Shown one piece after another: positions 349-8,434 of a stretch of 64,000 nucleotides of DNA. Position 1 is the first letter of the stretch. Every line of letters starts with the position of its first letter. A program made the translations under genes and the position numbers. The stretch spans positions 4,960,594-5,024,593 of the forward strand of contig CP073749.1 of the NCBI GenBank assembly GCA_024398055.1, read 5' to 3'. The notes beneath the pieces are model-generated. The model was not told the origin of the DNA. It searched no databases and was given only the letters and a program-made list of their open reading frames with translations. Source of the DNA: a bacterium SCSIO 12741 (lineage in GTDB: Bacteria > Bacteroidota > Bacteroidia > Flavobacteriales_G > Salibacteraceae).

Positions 349-1275
349 TCAATTATTGGAATTCATCAAAGAAAACTCTTTCGGACTCATCCCGGTCTTT
401 TTCTTAAACAACCTGGAGAAGTATTGCGGGTATTCGAATCCCAGTTTGTAGGCTGTTTCAGAAATAGAAGAATTAGGAGCCAATAGCATATTCTTGGCCT
501 CGTCTATCAAAAACAAGTTGATTTGATCGATAGCTGTTTTTCCGGTTTCGGCTTTGATGGAATCGCTCAAATAGCGGTGGCCCACTCCCAACTCTGCAGC
601 GATAAAATCAACTGTTGGAATGCCATTACTCATGAGCTTTTCGGCATCGAAATACTCATTCAGCACTTGACTAAACTGAGCGAGAACGGTTTGGTTAATG
701 GGCTTTCTGTCCAAAAACTGCCTCTTGTAGAAACGATCGGAGTATTGTAACAAAGTACTCAATTGAGAAATGAGCAGCTCTTTTGAAAATTCATCCTGGT
801 TGTTGTGGTATTCGGTTTCAATGTTTTTAAAGATGGATTTAATCAACTTTTCCTCTTTTGGAGCCAGGTGTAAGGCCTCATTTACCCGGTACTCAAAAAA
901 GCTGTACTTCTTAATCTGCCGGTACAAATCCGTTCCACGTATAAAGTCTTTGTGAAACATCAGGTGATAGGCTTCCGAACTGAATACCAAACCTTTGAAC
1001 ACCATGGTTTGTTTGGGTGCGGTAAACAGCATAGTTCCACTGTTGCAATCGTATTTGGTTTTGCCGTAGGTGAGCTCGCCCGAGATAATGTTCTTTAAAC
1101 TGATGCTGTAGAAATTGCAGGTCAGGCTAATTTCTTCCTGGGCTTCATCGCAGCTGCCATCATCATTCGCCTTATTTGCACCATGGTGAGAAGCACTGAA
1201 TAAAGGATTCTCGGGTGCGGGCAACTCATTGAAGTTATGAAAATCTGTGATCGTGTTAAATACCAGTTCTTTCAT
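349..1275 (-). CDS. AraC-family transcriptional regulator (first of two paralogues)
   Basis: A 308-residue protein. The C-terminal ~100 residues form the AraC/XylS double helix-turn-helix, recognisable by ISETAYKLGFEYPQYFSRLFKKKTG-type sequence followed by MSPKEF. The N-terminal ~190 residues form a cupin-like sensor domain of the kind usual in Bacteroidota one-component regulators (segment YGKTKYDCNSGTMLFTAP). It is clearly paralogous to the regulator at 7526-8434, which has the matching YGRNSYDFKDGTVVFTKP segment, so the two regulators bracket the hydrolase cluster. The gene lies 48 bases downstream of the DUF2255-like gene on the same strand. Target and ligand are unknown; control of the intervening genes is inferred. 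Confidence 0.88.
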   Translation of the reverse strand: MKELVFNTITDFHNFNELPAPENPLFSASHHGANKANDDGSCDEAQEEISLTCNFYSISLKNIISGELTYGKTKYDCNSGTMLFTAPKQTMVFKGLVFSSEAYHLMFHKDFIRGTDLYRQIKKYSFFEYRVNEALHLAPKEEKLIKSIFKNIETEYHNNQDEFSKELLISQLSTLLQYSDRFYKRQFLDRKPINQTVLAQFSQVLNEYFDAEKLMSNGIPTVDFIAAELGVGHRYLSDSIKAETGKTAIDQINLFLIDEAKNMLLAPNSSISETAYKLGFEYPQYFSRLFKKKTGMSPKEFSLMNSNN

Positions 1276-1323: not shown

Positions 1324-1698
1324 TCAAATTTTTCCGATAACCCTCGGAATTAATTCCAACGTGGATGCTTCATGCTTCTTTCGGTCATAGGTCAGGCGCA
1401 TTAACCAATACATGATATTCATCTTTCTGAAGTAGGCCTTATTCACTTTAGGGTTGATGCTTTCAAGATCCGTTGGAACTACCCCATCAATTGGAACTAC
1501 CTCATCTCCCAGCTTCATGGCACCTTCCGAATGATCCAAAAAGGCATGGTACCAGCTCCGTCCTCCAAACTTGTATTGGCGCACAAAAAATCGGCCTTCT
1601 GTTTGAACAATGGTAATATCAATAAAACGGTGATCACCGCACCGTATTTGATGGACCCATTTTGCATCCACCCGTTTTATCATTTCCTGCTTTGTCAT
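1324..1698 (-). CDS. DUF2255-like small protein
   Basis: A 124-residue soluble protein without signal peptide. The pattern of a basic N-terminus, RFFVRQYKFGGRSWYHAFLDH, an acidic VPIDGVVP segment and a C-terminal NKAYFRKM resembles the DUF2255 family, whose members are small proteins often encoded next to oxidoreductases; function unknown. It starts 21 bases after the SDR at 1720-2655, so co-transcription with that enzyme is likely. Family assignment is by eye and moderate. Confidence 0.6.
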   Translation of the reverse strand: MTKQEMIKRVDAKWVHQIRCGDHRFIDITIVQTEGRFFVRQYKFGGRSWYHAFLDHSEGAMKLGDEVVPIDGVVPTDLESINPKVNKAYFRKMNIMYWLMRLTYDRKKHEASTLELIPRVIGKI

Positions 1699-1719: not shown

Positions 1720-2655
1720 TTACATAAAGTCTTCGACCTTCAAATTCAACATTTTCTGGGTTTTATCCCACAATTTATCAATGTCTTCATCCTTAAAGTG
1801 GGTTCGATCTATTTCAATCGGAATGGGAGCTCCGGTCGATTCTCTCTTCTTGGGCGAATAAACCACTTTGGGCTTGGCGTCATCGGCTATCAATGCTTCA
1901 ATGGCTGGTAAAGCGCCATCGTATAAACTTTGGCTAATGCCCAACATTCCTGACACCCCATTCATTACCCTACCGAGTAGTTTCATGGAGAAGGTATCTG
2001 CTTGCTCAAAAAGATTTGTTCTGGACCAACCAGGGTGGCAAGACAAAGACATCGAACTCGAGCCTATTCTTTCAAATTCATCTTGAAGTTTTACCGCAAA
2101 CAGAATGGAGCAAAGTTTGGCCTTACAGTATTCCTGCATTTGGTTAAAATCAGAAGGATTCACGCACATAAGATGATCCACATCCAGGTCGTTTTTTAAG
2201 AATCGTTTGTAACCGATACTGGAAAAAGTAACAATTCTACTTCCATCTTTTAAAACCGGCAATAGCTGAGTGGTTATCGCAAAATGTCCCAAATAATTGA
2301 CGGCCAATTGTTGTTCCAATTTATCTGCAGTTAGGGCATATTTATTACCCCCTCCACCGGCATTGTTGGCCAGAAAGTCGATTTTGCCATAGCTACTTGT
2401 AATTCGCTGGCTAAACTTTCTAATACTTTCTAAATGAGTAATATCTACCACCTCAATTTCGAGATTGGCATGAGGTATTTCGTCTTTCAAACGTTTCTTG
2501 GCATCCTGCAGCTTTTCCACGTTTCGCGAAGCCATAATGACTTTGCAATGGTGTTTGGCCAAATGGTAAGTAATGCCGTATCCGGTTCCACTGTTAGCTC
2601 CCGTTACGATGGCCACCTTGCCACTTAAATCTGGAATGTTTTGGTAATTATTCAT
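1720..2655 (-). CDS. Short-chain dehydrogenase/reductase
   Basis: About 311 residues. Classical SDR features appear in order: TGANSGTG cofactor loop near residue 20, NNAGGGG after the fourth strand, catalytic Ser in TFSSIGY, and the YCKAK form of YxxxK. C-terminal residues beyond the core are consistent with the retinol-dehydrogenase-like branch. The ATG at 2653-2655 is chosen because it precedes VAIVTGANSG by a normal distance; an upstream in-frame ATG at 2709 would add 18 unrelated residues. Substrate unknown. It is followed closely by the DUF2255-like gene and then the AraC gene, and is preceded by the terminator of the secreted hydrolase. Confidence 0.85.
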   Translation of the reverse strand: MNNYQNIPDLSGKVAIVTGANSGTGYGITYHLAKHHCKVIMASRNVEKLQDAKKRLKDEIPHANLEIEVVDITHLESIRKFSQRITSSYGKIDFLANNAGGGGNKYALTADKLEQQLAVNYLGHFAITTQLLPVLKDGSRIVTFSSIGYKRFLKNDLDVDHLMCVNPSDFNQMQEYCKAKLCSILFAVKLQDEFERIGSSSMSLSCHPGWSRTNLFEQADTFSMKLLGRVMNGVSGMLGISQSLYDGALPAIEALIADDAKPKVVYSPKKRESTGAPIPIEIDRTHFKDEDIDKLWDKTQKMLNLKVEDFM

Positions 2656-2729
2656 AGTCGAGGGTTTTGAATTATGGATCAATGTGGGATAAGCAAGCCT
2701 TCCATCCATTCTACATTATGGCAATGAAT

Positions 2730-2780: not shown

Positions 2781-3815
2781 TTATTTATTGAAAAATTCTG
2801 CTGCAGCATCGGCGGAAGCGTTTACTGCTTCTGGCTTGTAGTAAAAATCAACATGGCCAAACTCGTCAAAGGCGATCACCTCAGGATTGTTGGTCAGCTT
2901 CTCGATAAAACCGGTAGAGCAAATAGCTGTAGAGGCACTGGTTCCGTAGATAACCAAAGTGGGCTGAACAATTTTATCCGCATAAGCCTCTCCGATAGAG
3001 ATAAGAGATTGCATGGCCTGATCACCAATGTGCATGTTGGTAAAGCTCTCCACCGCCTTAGGACCTCTATAACCATCTCTTCCGTAGTAGTCGTAGGATT
3101 CACCCGCCATTGCCGGATAGGCTGCAGCTCCCACGAATTCTTCTCTGGATTGCTCGTCATTTAGTCCAAAAGGTGCTACGTAATCAGGTTCACCCGTTTC
3201 GTACTGCTTTTGCATAGAAGCATTGGCCGCAGCGATCATTTGGTTGGCCGCTTCCCGGTCCGTCCATTGGAAAGCATCGGCTGCCATCATTCCGGAAACC
3301 GTAGCAATTTTCTTAATTCGGTGATCGGTTACCGCTGCAGAGGCGATGATAGAACCACCCTGGCATACTCCAAGTCCATATATCTCATCAACAAAAGGAA
3401 GCGTACCTAAGTAAGAAACAGCATCCCATGTATTTTCCAAAAGTCTAAACATGTATCTGGATTGTTTAAATTCTCCTGGAAGTGCCGGAGAAGCTCCCAT
3501 TCCCAAATAGTCGAATCCCAAGAAGATGAATCCTCTTTCGGCCATTTCTGGTCCATAGGTAGCCATCACTTGTTCCTTCACTTGAGGAAACGGACTGGCA
3601 CTTACAATGGCTTTGTACTTTTTGCTGGCATCAAAACCTTCTGGGAGGTATAGATCTCCCGCTAATTCTACTCCAAATGATTTGAAAGTAACTTCGTTCT
3701 TTCCTGCTTTTAAGTTTTCCATGGTATTGTTTTTTACGTTGTTATTTGTTTGGGCTGATAGGTTTAATGAAGTGGCTATCAGGAGCCCGGTTAATGTTTT
3801 TGCGATTGTTTTCAT
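2781..3815 (-). CDS. Secreted alpha/beta hydrolase with cysteine nucleophile (dienelactone-hydrolase-like)
   Basis: 344 residues from the ATG at 3815, which opens a typical signal peptide ending LSAQ; an in-frame start 30 codons upstream would bury that signal and is rejected. The nucleophile elbow is GVCQGG with Cys151, as in dienelactone hydrolases, not Ser. The probable catalytic His lies in DEFGHVDFY near the C-terminus. The expected Asp loop after LVIYG is TSAST, with no Asp at the usual place. Predicted periplasmic enzyme of unknown substrate. It is divergent from the three-hydrolase operon at 4223, with which it shares promoter motifs, and has its own terminator. Confidence 0.8.
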   Translation of the reverse strand: MKTIAKTLTGLLIATSLNLSAQTNNNVKNNTMENLKAGKNEVTFKSFGVELAGDLYLPEGFDASKKYKAIVSASPFPQVKEQVMATYGPEMAERGFIFLGFDYLGMGASPALPGEFKQSRYMFRLLENTWDAVSYLGTLPFVDEIYGLGVCQGGSIIASAAVTDHRIKKIATVSGMMAADAFQWTDREAANQMIAAANASMQKQYETGEPDYVAPFGLNDEQSREEFVGAAAYPAMAGESYDYYGRDGYRGPKAVESFTNMHIGDQAMQSLISIGEAYADKIVQPTLVIYGTSASTAICSTGFIEKLTNNPEVIAFDEFGHVDFYYKPEAVNASADAAAEFFNK

Positions 3816-3845
3816 ATTCAACTGATTTTTGAAAAATGATACAAG

Positions 3846-3891
3846 ACAAAGGTCCGCAGAGACTAAGCGAAACCACTTAAACATTTCTGTA
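3846..3891 (-). promoter_or_regulatory. Candidate promoter of the secreted hydrolase, matched to the divergent promoter
   Basis: Reading the minus strand, TACAGAAAT (3883-3891) precedes CGGACCTTTGT (3846-3856) by 35 bases start to start, and the latter lies 30 bases before the ATG. GACCTTTG is one base from the Bacteroidota -7 box TAnnTTTG. The same two motifs occur on the plus strand before 4223 at nearly the same spacing. The promoter role is inferred. Confidence 0.5.
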
Positions 3892-4090
3892 GAAGACTTA
3901 TACATTTTGGTAGGAGGCCTTGGAATTCCCTAAGCCGATTGGTCTTTAAATTCCAAGCAACGATGGGATGTTTAGCTTGTGAATGGGGTTATTGGCTTGT
4001 ATTACGATGGCAGATTGAACCAAGGATTAATTAAGGCAGTACACCTTAACAAATACAAATCGAAGGACAATTTAGAATGAATGATTGGGT

Positions 4091-4133
4091 CCAGGAGGAT
4101 TGAACCAATATAATCCTGGATGATATCATCCTG
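4091..4133. promoter_or_regulatory. Palindromic operator candidate in the divergent intergenic region
   Basis: Lies within the 407-base gap between divergent hydrolase genes. GGATGATATCATCC at 4118-4131 is a perfect 14-bp palindrome. CCAGGAGGATT (4091-4101) is the inverted partner of AATCCTGG (4112-4119) with two extra bases, and ATCCTG is directly repeated at 4113-4118 and 4128-4133, 15 bases apart. Nested direct and inverted half-sites are what a dimeric regulator, such as the flanking AraC proteins, could bind; this is inference. The rest of the gap (3892-4090) shows nothing else I can name. Confidence 0.4.
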
Positions 4134-4149
4134 CAATATGTTTCCTCTT

Positions 4150-4197
4150 TACAGGAATATATTTCTGCCCTGCCCTATACAATCAACGGACCTTTGT
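4150..4197 (+). promoter_or_regulatory. Candidate promoter of the three-hydrolase operon
   Basis: TACAGGAAT (4150-4158) precedes CGGACCTTTGT (4187-4197) by 37 bases start to start; the ATG follows 25 bases later. The 11-base element is identical to that in the divergent promoter on the other strand, and GACCTTTG approximates the -7 box. Confidence 0.5.
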
Positions 4198-4222
4198 TTT
4201 AAACATTCAAACCCTCGCTATT

Positions 4223-5122
4223 ATGATCGCTAAAATGTTAATGAAAAGAGTAGTACCAGCAGTCGCCAATACCAGGAGGTCTCCGGTTTTAAGAAGACCA
4301 GATGAATATGATATGGTCTATGAAGATGTTTCATTTCCTTCTTTGGATGGTTTACCATTAGAAGGCTGGTATATTCCGGCCAAACAACCTTCCCAAAAAG
4401 TAGTTATTTGCAACCATTTCTCTCCAGGTAATCGCTATGGATATGCAGGCCACATTAAGCCCTGGAAGGGTGCTGGCGGATTTGAAGTAAACTTTCTCCC
4501 CAAATACAAGGCACTTGTAGAAGCAGGCTATAACGTTTTCGCTTATGATTTGCGAGGTCATGGGATGAGTACCCCAGGACAAAATGGAGCCTACAATCCA
4601 AAATTCTTTGAATACAAAGATGTCATTGGCTCAATGAACTACGTCAAAAACCGACCTGATACTCAAGGAATGGAAATTCACTTACACAGTATGTGTTTGG
4701 GTGGAAATTCCACCTTGGTAGCCATGCGCAAACATCCTGAAGTTTTCGAAGGTGTTAAATCCATGATGTTACTCCAACCTATTTCTGGTGACGCATTGGT
4801 AAGAAAACTGGCTAAAAACATGAAGTTAGGTAAGGCTGGGTACGACGCATTTGAACAACAATACAGGGAGTTGTATGGATTTGCCATCAATGATGCTTCA
4901 CCCATTGATGATGCCAGGTATGTAAAGGTGCCAACGTTTGTGGCTCAAGTCAGAAAGGACTCTTTTACCTATGCTGAAGAGGACGTTCAAGCCGTATTTG
5001 ACGCAATTCCTCACACGGACAAAGACCTGTATTGGATTGAAGGAACAACGCAGCGTTTTAAAGGCTACACCTACTTTTCAGAGCATCCCGAACAAATGAT
5101 TGATTGGTATAACAAGCACTAA
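4223..5122 (+). CDS. Cytoplasmic alpha/beta hydrolase with cysteine nucleophile (paralogue 1)
   Basis: 299 residues, no signal peptide. The fold is indicated by YDLRGHGMS (after strand 4-5) and the nucleophile elbow HSMCLGG, which puts Cys158 where most hydrolases have Ser. It is nearly collinear with the genes at 5148 and 6117 (shared NHFSPGNRYGYAGH and FEVNFLPKYKAL segments with 6117). Where paralogue 3 has RFHGYTYF this copy has RFKGYTYF (Lys280), so its catalytic His is either replaced by Lys or supplied from elsewhere, for example the His in SEHPE. First gene of a likely five-gene operon to 8434. Confidence 0.8.
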   Translation: MIAKMLMKRVVPAVANTRRSPVLRRPDEYDMVYEDVSFPSLDGLPLEGWYIPAKQPSQKVVICNHFSPGNRYGYAGHIKPWKGAGGFEVNFLPKYKALVEAGYNVFAYDLRGHGMSTPGQNGAYNPKFFEYKDVIGSMNYVKNRPDTQGMEIHLHSMCLGGNSTLVAMRKHPEVFEGVKSMMLLQPISGDALVRKLAKNMKLGKAGYDAFEQQYRELYGFAINDASPIDDARYVKVPTFVAQVRKDSFTYAEEDVQAVFDAIPHTDKDLYWIEGTTQRFKGYTYFSEHPEQMIDWYNKH

Positions 5123-5147
5123 TTGCTGAAATTCTAAATACGGAAAA

Positions 5148-6095
5148 ATGAAAACAAGTAATTCCATAAAAATTCTCCTGCTGCTTCCTGTAGTAGCGCT
5201 ACTCATGGCTGGTTGCGGTAAAACCGTTTCTAACCTGATGATTAAACCCGGTAGCTCACCGGTGTTCGAAACTCCGGAACAATATGGCCTAGCCTATGAA
5301 GACGTAAGCTTTAAAACATCCGATGGTGTAACTCTTTCTGGCTGGTTAATAAAAGGAAACACGGATAAAGTAATTATTCAATCTCACTTTGGGGTCCAGT
5401 GTTCTTGTGCTGGTTTTACCCAAAAGGGAAAGGGAATGATGAAAAACGCTTTATGGACGGATGATATCCATTTCCTAAATCAGGCCAAGTACCTGGTTGA
5501 TGCTGGTTACTCCGTGTTGATGTATGATTTACGAAATCATGGGAACAGCGGTGAAGGAACCACCCCCTGGATTACGTGGGGAACTGAAGAACGCAAGGAT
5601 GTTTTGGCTGCGGTTGATTTTATTTCGAATCACCAGGATTATAAAGATGCCTCTATCGGGTTACTCAGTATTTGTATGGGAGCTGCATCGAGCACGTTCG
5701 CTTTTGGCCTGGAGGAGGAACTGTCGAAGAATGATCAGGTTAAAACCATGATTGCTGTTCAACCCCTAACGTACGACTACTTCACTGAAGCTTTGGGCAT
5801 GCCTAACTCTGCAGTAAAAAGTGGAAACAAATACAGCAAAGAAAAACGCGGTGTTGACCTTACGGGCGACTCTTTTTTGCCTTATGTGAAAGACATCAAC
5901 AAACCCACATTGGTTATTCAAAACAGCAATGACCCTATGACCAACATGGATATGGTTAACCAATACTACAATAACCTTCTGGTAGAAAAAGAAATGATGT
6001 GGTTAGACTTAGACAAAAAACGAGGCGCAGCCTACGATTGGCTTGGCAATAACCCCGAACCCATTCTTAATTGGTTCAACAAATACATGAATTAA
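5148..6095 (+). CDS. Lipoprotein alpha/beta hydrolase paralogue, catalytic His apparently lost (paralogue 2)
   Basis: 315 residues. The N-terminus is a lipoprotein signal with lipobox LMAGC, so the mature protein is membrane-anchored, unlike its two neighbours. YDLRNHGNSG and the elbow LSICMGA (Cys176) mark the hydrolase fold. The C-terminal strand aligns as KKRGAAYDW against WRFHGYTYF of paralogue 3, putting Ala294 at the His position; no other His is present near the C-terminus. It starts 25 bases after the stop of paralogue 1. It may be a non-catalytic binding protein or use a different catalytic arrangement; both are inference. Confidence 0.78.
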   Translation: MKTSNSIKILLLLPVVALLMAGCGKTVSNLMIKPGSSPVFETPEQYGLAYEDVSFKTSDGVTLSGWLIKGNTDKVIIQSHFGVQCSCAGFTQKGKGMMKNALWTDDIHFLNQAKYLVDAGYSVLMYDLRNHGNSGEGTTPWITWGTEERKDVLAAVDFISNHQDYKDASIGLLSICMGAASSTFAFGLEEELSKNDQVKTMIAVQPLTYDYFTEALGMPNSAVKSGNKYSKEKRGVDLTGDSFLPYVKDINKPTLVIQNSNDPMTNMDMVNQYYNNLLVEKEMMWLDLDKKRGAAYDWLGNNPEPILNWFNKYMN

Positions 6096-6116
6096 TAATC
6101 TGATAATCCTAAAACT

Positions 6117-7025
6117 ATGGAAACGGACCAAACAACAGAATTCTTAAACAGCTTAGCCTACAACTTGGCTAAACCTATTAGAACTAAAATCCTGAGAAAA
6201 CCTGACGAATATGGTTTAAACTATGAAGAAGTAACCTTTAAAGCCGCGGATGGTGTAGAATTACATGCCTGGTTTATCCCTTCGGATTCAAACAAATTGA
6301 TCATTCACAACCACTTTTCACCGGCAAGCCGATACGGGTTTCCGGGTCACATGAAAAACTTTGAGGCATCTGGTGGGTTCGAGGTAAATTTCTTACCCAA
6401 GTACAAGGCCTTACACGATGCCGGTTACAATATATTAACCTACGACATGCGCAACCATGGAGAAAGTGATTCTTCAGAAAATGAGATTTGTGGCGTTGGT
6501 TATTGGGAATGGCAAGATGTGATCGGTTCTTTACGATTCGCCAAAAGCTTTGAAAAAACCAAAGACATGGACATCTCCCTTCAAAGCATGTGTATGGGAG
6601 CAAACTCTACTCTAAGAGCCATGCACAATGCTCCTGAAGAGTTTGAGGGAATAAAAAGCTGGATACTCATCCAGCCGCTACACGGCCAGACTTGCATTGA
6701 AAGAAGTTTGGAAGCCATGGGAATGAATATAGAAGACGGAATCACCGAATTTATACCCATTAATAAAGAGCTAACCGGCCTTTCATTTGATGACCATAAC
6801 ATGCGTCAATTTGTAAAGGATGTAAAAATTCCAACTTTGGTTCTACAAGTTAGAAACGATAGGGTATCTCGTGAAAGCGACATTCAAGAGATTTATGACA
6901 ACCTGGAGGTTCCTATGAAAGATATTATTTGGATTGAAGATACCCCATGGCGTTTTCATGGTTATACGTATTTTTCTGAATATCCGCAGGAAATGATTGC
7001 TTGGTATGATAAATTCATGAAATAA
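6117..7025 (+). CDS. Cytoplasmic alpha/beta hydrolase with cysteine nucleophile (paralogue 3)
   Basis: 302 residues, no signal peptide. Hydrolase landmarks: YDMRNHGES, elbow LQSMCMGANS with Cys159, and RFHGYTYF with His281 at the expected catalytic His position, so a Cys-containing triad is plausible here. LVLQVRNDRVS carries the likely acid Asp. Strongly similar to paralogue 1 over the whole length, indicating tandem duplication. It begins 21 bases after paralogue 2 and is followed after 4 bases by the SRPBCC gene, supporting one transcript. Substrate unknown; related families include dienelactone hydrolases and Cys-type esterases. Confidence 0.8.
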   Translation: METDQTTEFLNSLAYNLAKPIRTKILRKPDEYGLNYEEVTFKAADGVELHAWFIPSDSNKLIIHNHFSPASRYGFPGHMKNFEASGGFEVNFLPKYKALHDAGYNILTYDMRNHGESDSSENEICGVGYWEWQDVIGSLRFAKSFEKTKDMDISLQSMCMGANSTLRAMHNAPEEFEGIKSWILIQPLHGQTCIERSLEAMGMNIEDGITEFIPINKELTGLSFDDHNMRQFVKDVKIPTLVLQVRNDRVSRESDIQEIYDNLEVPMKDIIWIEDTPWRFHGYTYFSEYPQEMIAWYDKFMK

Positions 7026-7029
7026 AACC

Positions 7030-7533
7030 ATGTTACTAATGACAATTTTAAGTTCAAAATGGATGTTAGCAGGATTAGCCCTATTGGCTATCCTGCTTAT
7101 CCTGTTTGTAATGGGTAAAAAAGAAGTAAAAACGAGCATCGTAATAAATGCTTCCACCGATCAAGTGTGGCAAGCCTTAAGTAGTCCTGAGAAAATTAAA
7201 GAATGGAATACTGTGCTTATTCCCCTTTCAGGAGAGTTTAAAGAAGGTACAATGGTTCAGTACAATTTTGTTCAGGATGAAAATAGCAGTACCCAGCTCG
7301 GTGCCAAAGTGGTTAAAATCGAGCCGAAGCGGCTAATTAATCAAGAAGGTGGACCTGTTGGAATTCTCACCTTTAATCACAGCTATATTTTGGAACCTGA
7401 TGGTGACCTTTGTCGCGTTACTATTCACGAAAAATACCGAGGTATAATGGTTCCTTTCTGGAATCCGAATGCGGTAGAAAAAGCCTACGAAAGATTGCTG
7501 CAACAGCTTAAAAACCACGTAGAGAATGAGTAA
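7030..7533 (+). CDS. Membrane-anchored SRPBCC (START-like) family protein
   Basis: 167 residues. Residues about 8-28 form one hydrophobic segment; the remainder has the SRPBCC pattern: INASTDQVWQALSSPEKIKEWN at the start of the hydrophobic-ligand-binding fold, a central GTMVQYNF strand and a long C-terminal helix. Such domains bind or convert lipids, aromatics or polyketides. The last codons overlap the start of the AraC gene (ATGAGTAA, 7526-7533), implying translational coupling. In this context it may bind the hydrophobic substrate or product of the hydrolases; that is inference. Confidence 0.78.
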   Translation: MLLMTILSSKWMLAGLALLAILLILFVMGKKEVKTSIVINASTDQVWQALSSPEKIKEWNTVLIPLSGEFKEGTMVQYNFVQDENSSTQLGAKVVKIEPKRLINQEGGPVGILTFNHSYILEPDGDLCRVTIHEKYRGIMVPFWNPNAVEKAYERLLQQLKNHVENE

Positions 7534-8434
7534 CATTTTCACAATAGAATCGGTAAGTCAAATCCATGAGTTTTTGGGATTATCTGGCCCCAAACATCCA
7601 TTAATAACCGTTCTGCCGATTGACGAACGAATCGTTACTGCAAACTATGGCGATACTACTTTTGTCATGGATCTGTTTCAAATCAGTCTAAAAAAAGGGA
7701 TTGAAGGAAACATTTCCTATGGACGTAATTCTTACGACTTTAAGGATGGCACCGTGGTTTTTACCAAACCGGATCAAGCCATGAAGTTTTCCACCCAGGA
7801 AGACTTTAGCAATGTATCGGGTTGGACCATCATATTTCACCCTGATTTGATTCGTAAATCAGAATTGGGAAAGATTATTGATAACTACGATTTTTTCTCC
7901 TATGAAATCTTTGAAGCCCTTCACCTATCAACCGAAGAACAGGAAGTACTTACCGAATTAGCGGAAAAGATTAAAAGAGAATACGAATACATTATTGACC
8001 GCCATAGTCAGGAATTGATGGTGTCGAACATTAAACTCTTACTGGATTATTGCACCCGGTATTACGATCGTCAATTTTACACCCGTTCGAATCTGAATAA
8101 AGACCTGGTCAGTCGATTTGAGTTGTTGCTTCACAATTATTTTAAGGAGGATAAACAACGAGCGCTGGGTGTACCAACGGTAAAGTACTTTGGAGAGGCT
8201 ATGAATATGTCCGCGCATTACTTAAGCGATATGCTTAAAAAAGAAAGTGGCCGGAGCGCACAGGATCACATTTATACTCACTTAATGGATTTGGCCAAAA
8301 CCCGATTGCTAAATTCAACCGCACCTATTAGTCAAATAGCCTATGGATTGGGTTTTGAATACCCCAATCACTTCAGCAAGCTGTTTAAATCAAAGGTAGG
8401 GATGAGTCCAGTAGATTTCAGGTCAAATAACTGA
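7526..8434 (+). CDS. AraC-family transcriptional regulator (second paralogue)
   Basis: 302 residues with the C-terminal AraC DNA-binding domain (ISQIAYGLGFEYPNHFSKLF, then MSPVDF) and an N-terminal sensor domain like that of the regulator at 349-1275. Its start codon overlaps the end of the SRPBCC gene by 8 bases, so it is the last gene of the hydrolase operon and probably autoregulatory for it. Two paralogous regulators suggest either two inducers or one regulator per half of the cluster. Confidence 0.88.
   Translation: MSNIFTIESVSQIHEFLGLSGPKHPLITVLPIDERIVTANYGDTTFVMDLFQISLKKGIEGNISYGRNSYDFKDGTVVFTKPDQAMKFSTQEDFSNVSGWTIIFHPDLIRKSELGKIIDNYDFFSYEIFEALHLSTEEQEVLTELAEKIKREYEYIIDRHSQELMVSNIKLLLDYCTRYYDRQFYTRSNLNKDLVSRFELLLHNYFKEDKQRALGVPTVKYFGEAMNMSAHYLSDMLKKESGRSAQDHIYTHLMDLAKTRLLNSTAPISQIAYGLGFEYPNHFSKLFKSKVGMSPVDFRSNN

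Follow-up and report, generated by a model that had tools for sequence, protein, structure and literature searches.

The question raised by this locus is what four alpha/beta hydrolases with cysteine at the nucleophile elbow do side by side in the genome of bacterium SCSIO 12741, within a stretch of 64,000 nucleotides that we refer to as the window (contig CP073749.1, positions 4,960,594 to 5,024,593; G000:C1:4960594-5024593). The four proteins, here named H1 to H4, had been tentatively interpreted in a sequence-only reading, with dienelactone hydrolases as the known precedent, as a pathway from envelope to cytoplasm that takes up and hydrolyzes a small, perhaps hydrophobic or lactone-type compound. 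What is noteworthy in the present analysis is that three of them, H2, H3 and H4, belong to a cysteine family that has lost the histidine of the catalytic triad and retains conserved partner genes. The four cysteine elbows and the close gene spacing were confirmed, as were a single Sec-like signal, in H1 (taking the ATG at 3815 as its start), and a single lipobox (LLMAGC), in H3, with neither in H2 and H4.

Two families of cysteine-elbow hydrolases

Pairwise identity was 28-44% among H2, H3 and H4 and 16% between H1 and H2, and because of this difference the four hydrolases are assigned to two families, H1 alone and H2-H4 together. The idea of a four-hydrolase cluster holds in that four elbows are present, but they fall in two families, and a fifth paralogue, with the elbow NPCAGG, lies just beyond the left edge of the window.

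H1, with the elbow GVCQGG, is of a separate and known type, the YcjY-type Cys-His enzyme. Its best solved relative was E. coli YcjY (5xb6, E 2.1e-20, residues 48-341), followed by PA2218. The elbow cysteine was present in every H1 homologue covering that position and the histidine was kept in nearly all of them. H1 itself has Cys151 and His321, while its canonical acid position is replaced (GTSAST) and is non-acidic in most relatives too. H1 had 12 matches in one related Flavobacteriales genome (G011; contigs C232, C111, C124, C92, C81 and others), among them tandem copies and copies at contig ends, an unusual expansion of the YcjY type.

For H2, H3 and H4, Pfam returned general matches only (Hydrolase_4, Abhydrolase_1), with Hydrolase_4 found in all 71 members of the H2-H4 family that were scanned, and neither Pfam nor NCBIfam yielded a model specific to this family. 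The dienelactone hydrolase family PF01738 was absent from the Pfam results at E 0.001 for the same 71 members and for the four window proteins. The best NCBIfam profile for all four hydrolases was that of UilS (NF047920), at 22.4-49.3 bits compared to a cut-off of 400, and the match was weak and partial in every one of the 71 scanned members; a lactone substrate, for which these matches are the only ground, is not supported. A search of the available literature found no report of a histidine-less cysteine alpha/beta-hydrolase family, nor of this gene set, and H2-H4 appear to represent an undescribed bacterial family spread over many phyla.

The active site of the H2-H4 family

Homologues were gathered from 100 related genomes, from a scan of genome contigs (the best 80 of 313 relatives), from plasmids, and from paralogues adjoining the matches. 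In the resulting alignment of 117 family members, numbered according to H4, Cys159, Arg279, Tyr283, Gln244 and His66 were present in all 117 and Asp248 in 116. Together with the H1 homologues, this indicates that the elbow cysteine is real and not a chance feature, and that cysteine, rather than serine, is the norm.

The triad histidine is expected after beta-8, at position 278, where only 3 of the 117 members had histidine and the others mostly Gln, Lys, Arg, Trp, Val, Glu or Ile; H2, H3 and H4 all lack it. Three canonical relatives of the same class served as an outgroup (the clean Ser-type L006, L007 and L010; L009, L011, L013, L015, L018 and L020 were left out as fragments only), and these have serine at the elbow and histidine aligned at 278. 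The histidine-keeping members (P0014, L032:9176-10132 and L048:1499-2470) carry it immediately before the invariant arginine, which supports the alignment register at this position and, since three members still have it, suggests that the triad histidine was lost within the family. With this histidine in just 3 of 117 members and an invariant arginine following its position, H2-H4 are placed outside the canonical Cys-Asp-His enzymes that the dienelactone hydrolases represent. In a survey of the superfamily from 2024, the histidine after beta-8 was reported as totally conserved, and Cys-Asp-His triads were included but no histidine-less cysteine family (PMC11878206). Membership of H2-H4 among the dienelactone hydrolases was therefore rejected, as the triad histidine is missing and PF01738 was not reported; the kinship fares no better for H1, which lacks the canonical acid.

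AlphaFold2 (AF2) models of H4 and H3 (mean predicted local distance difference test, pLDDT, 95.4 and 91.2) gave Protein Data Bank matches at Z > 28, which place both in the alpha/beta-hydrolase fold. In both models, the cysteine sits at the strand-helix elbow and the aspartate after the next-to-last strand, while residues 278/279 lie beyond the last strand, in the loop that follows it. Because no base stands at the usual place, fast hydrolysis by H2-H4 is doubtful unless another histidine steps in, and neither candidate, His66 or His78, is convincing.

Gene partners, island and distribution

The H2-H4 family divides into two subfamilies, A (H2 and H4) and B (H3), the latter monophyletic in the tree with a support of 0.967. 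A recent tandem duplication of H3/H4 was considered and rejected, as A and B are old clades. A and B genes are neighbors in at least six groups listed as phyla (Bacteroidota, Alphaproteobacteria, Actinomycetota, Myxococcota, Bacillota and Cyanobacteriota), and were found side by side, in varying order, in Cyclobacteriaceae, Saprospiraceae, Rhodothermaceae, Tenacibaculum, Rhodobacteraceae, Ilumatobacter, a myxobacterium, Acidaminobacter and Acaryochloris. Partners encoded no more than 3.5 kb from 84 family genes were short-chain dehydrogenase/reductases (SDR; 24), a second hydrolase (21), AraC (19), SRPBCC (16), TetR (14) and YcjY-like proteins (6). For SRPBCC, the 16 observed cases compare with a chance expectation of ~1.6 in 84, a rough figure based on the 12 matches to PF10604 found in this one genome of 5.1 Mb. 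A hydrophobic helix at the N terminus is present in most of the SRPBCC partners. The gene order B-A-SRPBCC-AraC, as in H3-H4-SRPBCC-AraC here, was repeated in three other loci (L032, L041 and L066, the last with two SRPBCC genes), and a Vibrio plasmid that was found without the scan motif carries, behind a TonB receptor gene, consecutive genes for a B hydrolase, an oxidoreductase, an SRPBCC protein and a helix-turn-helix regulator. The neighborhood is conserved, with the A/B pair, a usually membrane-anchored SRPBCC protein, an AraC or TetR regulator and SDRs recurring together. The proposed division between compartments did not stand up in the same way: in paired loci, the H3 orthologues begin only past the lipobox, and some members of both families have a signal peptide while others do not. 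A conserved compartment split was rejected on these grounds.

At the locus itself, genes are arranged in two divergent runs. In the plus-strand run, H2 and H3 are separated by 25 bp, H3 and H4 by 21 bp, and H4 and the SRPBCC gene by 4 bp, while the SRPBCC and AraC genes overlap by 8 bp. The minus-strand run comprises H1, an SDR, a DUF2255-like small protein and a second AraC, and diverges from the other at a 407-bp region. Promoter and terminator scans of the locus found nothing above chance, including a consensus promoter in the 407-bp region. The two AraC regulators of the window matched HTH_18 at 65.5 and 66.3 bits (curated cut-off 33.6) and the SRPBCC protein matched PF10604 at 56.5 bits (curated cut-off 27.4).

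Table 1 Genes and intergenic region of the hydrolase locus, in window positions
Feature	Position	Strand	Details
H1, YcjY-type alpha/beta hydrolase, Sec-like signal	2781..3815	-	Elbow Cys codon 3363-3365; YcjY match and homologue alignment
H2, subfamily A of the His-less Cys family	4223..5122	+	Elbow SMCLGG, TGT 4694-4696
H3, subfamily B, lipobox	5148..6095	+	Elbow SICMGA, TGT 5673-5675
H4, subfamily A	6117..7025	+	Elbow SMCMGA, TGT 6591-6593; C159, D248, R279 in family numbering
SRPBCC protein (Polyketide_cyc2, PF10604), N-terminal membrane helix	7030..7533	+	Pfam
AraC regulator, PKHPLI type, last gene of plus-strand run	7526..8434	+	Pfam and sequence
SDR oxidoreductase, downstream of H1	1720..2709	-	Pfam
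Small protein, weak sub-threshold DUF2255 match	1324..1698	-	Pfam
Second AraC regulator, same PKHPLI type	349..1275	-	Pfam and sequence
407 bp between divergent H1 and H2, likely promoter region for both runs	3816..4222	none	

The window lies at one end of an island of ~30 kb that contains AraC, SDR, hydrolase and resistance-nodulation-division (RND) efflux genes. In addition to the fifth paralogue, the region left of the window has three further AraC genes, of the same type as those in the window and one of them frameshifted, as well as three SDRs, a Ser-type hydrolase (Abhydrolase_3) and, by eye and with no Pfam match, DoxX-like small membrane proteins; beyond these, an AraC gene precedes an RND efflux operon, and another YcjY-like protein is encoded there too. 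In this adjoining part (L154 and L027:3-4293, G000:C1:4943420-4950293), the AraC-type gene precedes genes for a membrane-fusion protein, an RND transporter and an outer-membrane factor. The frameshifted AraC gene (L027:9215-9949, G000:C1 ~4955000) is broken near its 3' end, with the remainder of the helix-turn-helix region in another frame. Elsewhere in the genome, AraC genes of this type adjoin, by eye, SDR, SRPBCC or aldehyde dehydrogenase-like genes. A second SRPBCC-AraC pair, without a hydrolase, is located behind ABC transporter and membrane-fusion genes (L149, G000:C1:3083987-3085393), and its AraC protein is the closest paralogue (51%) of the AraC regulator in the window.

A family-profile scan of ~300 genomes of the phylum at E 1e-30 detected the window's own genome only, and a looser scan of 100 relatives gave strong matches in three other genomes. 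The H2-H4 family is rare in this phylum, and its distribution is patchy. It also occurs on conjugative plasmids, clinical ones included. On clinical and farm plasmids, a subfamily A gene is divergent from an AraC gene in L155 (K. pneumoniae pIMP-PH114), L112 (a P. aeruginosa plasmid) and L156 (a Salmonella plasmid); an NAD(P)H oxidoreductase gene stands behind it in L155 and L112, and the pIMP-PH114 gene is near blaDHA-1 and an ISCR1 element. Record titles among L032-L111 name several carriers for sponges or give them a marine origin, an impression that is not statistical. The island, the patchy distribution and the plasmid carriage fit the idea of an acquired response to a small molecule, either foreign or made by the cell itself.

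Candidate functions and known relatives

The explanation that we tentatively prefer, and which falls somewhat short of an even chance, is that the locus encodes a module that is inducible and has spread laterally, and that acts on a small hydrophobic carbonyl or acyl compound, capturing and processing it by means of a thiolate activated without histidine. In this model, the AraC protein would sense the compound and the SRPBCC protein would bind it at the membrane. The cysteine thiolate, held by Arg279 and Asp248 in place of the histidine, would attack the electrophilic carbon to give a covalent adduct, which could then be slowly hydrolyzed, handed on to a different acceptor, or reduced by the SDR. 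A and B might act together in a heteromer or one after the other, and H1, as a separate enzyme of the YcjY-type Cys-His kind, would have joined this response. It is part of this explanation, and held with the same tentativeness as the whole, that H2-H3-H4-SRPBCC-AraC may form a single operon within a laterally mobile module under regulator control. Given the SRPBCC partner and the island, a small and hydrophobic compound is plausible, and the AraC-linked RND efflux operon adjoining the island was counted in favor of the model. Several points weigh against it. An SRPBCC or B partner is found in a minority of loci only. The contig scan was based on a single motif, YD-R-H, and on the 80 best matches, which inflates the conservation of R112/H114 and favors closer relatives. 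Finally, the invariant His66 and the common His78 make a relocated base possible, although His66 is also found in canonical relatives. The more general proposition, a widespread alpha/beta-hydrolase-fold family in which a Cys-Asp-Arg site replaces the triad histidine and whose A/B pair serves an inducible, partly plasmid-borne response to electrophiles or xenobiotics, is rather doubtful at present.

A relocated base is the alternative that survives best, and we regard it as rather unlikely. H2-H4 would then be ordinary cysteine hydrolases of esters or lactones, with the base supplied from the long loop that follows beta-3, by either His66 or His78. This loop is ~25 residues longer than in the Ser-type relatives, and His66 is invariant and His78 present in 86 of 93 members; the esterase PF2001 is the best fold match (Z 28.2), and the weak partial UilS lactonase match extends to the whole scanned set. 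But His66 is the usual histidine of the HG motif, retained in canonical relatives that have their own triad histidine, and H3 and the proteins closest to it have no His78. Neither residue explains the invariant Arg279.

It is unlikely that the proteins are non-hydrolases in which the cysteine binds or senses an electrophile (a quinone, enone or aldehyde) or transfers an acyl group in the manner of GrgF or DcsB. The loss of the water-activating base with retention of Cys and Asp would fit such a role, as would the presence of these fungal enzymes among the top structural matches (Z 23-24) and of SDRs and NAD(P)H oxidoreductases as neighbors. However, a shared fold is no proof of function, the clusters examined in detail contain no polyketide or peptide synthetase genes, and nothing gives a direct sign of a sensor role. 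The model of lactone or aromatic uptake and hydrolysis from envelope to cytoplasm by four dienelactone hydrolase-like enzymes is improbable: the signals and elbows are as it described and a TonB receptor stands beside the related Vibrio cluster, but none of the four hydrolases has Cys-Asp-His in canonical positions, the four fall in two families, and the lipobox is absent in the paired-locus H3 orthologues. That the proteins are pseudoenzymes, with a structural cysteine and a role limited to ligand binding or scaffolding, would account for the missing triad histidine and is very improbable, as Cys, Asp, Arg, Gln and Tyr show little or no variation across 117 proteins while adjacent elbow positions vary, which argues for retained chemistry.

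If the proposed site is correct, a multi-phylum family without the triad histidine, and with an invariant Cys and Arg and a near-invariant Asp, would point to another way of activating the nucleophile or to a non-hydrolytic reaction. The conserved gene set, with its operon, regulator and partner proteins, would offer direct handles on the substrate, and the relatives on clinical resistance plasmids would make the function relevant beyond marine bacteria.

Among known systems, the dienelactone hydrolases and other Cys-Asp-His hydrolases share with H2-H4 the fold, the elbow cysteine and the aspartate (2o2g matched at Z 22.7), and differ in having the histidine in the loop after beta-8 and in PF01738 membership. 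The fungal polyketide enzymes GrgF and DcsB (6lzh, 7d78) are structural matches, and the GrgF elbow, GLCFGGN, is similar, but they come from other organisms and another context, and no biosynthetic cluster was seen at this locus. UilS, an acyl-homoserine lactonase of Serratia, provides the best NCBIfam profile, which H2-H4 match over a short N-terminal to central stretch, with window proteins at 22-49 bits versus the cut-off of 400. YcjY and PA2218 (5xb6, 2hdw) align with H1 over nearly its whole length and have the Cys elbow and His in common; H1 differs in its signal peptide and its place in an AraC/SDR island, and H2-H4 are of another type. The closest solved fold for both A and B is the PF2001 esterase of Pyrococcus furiosus (5g59; Z 28, 19-24% identity), whose elbow in the alignment, GFSMGA, has serine where the H2-H4 family has cysteine.

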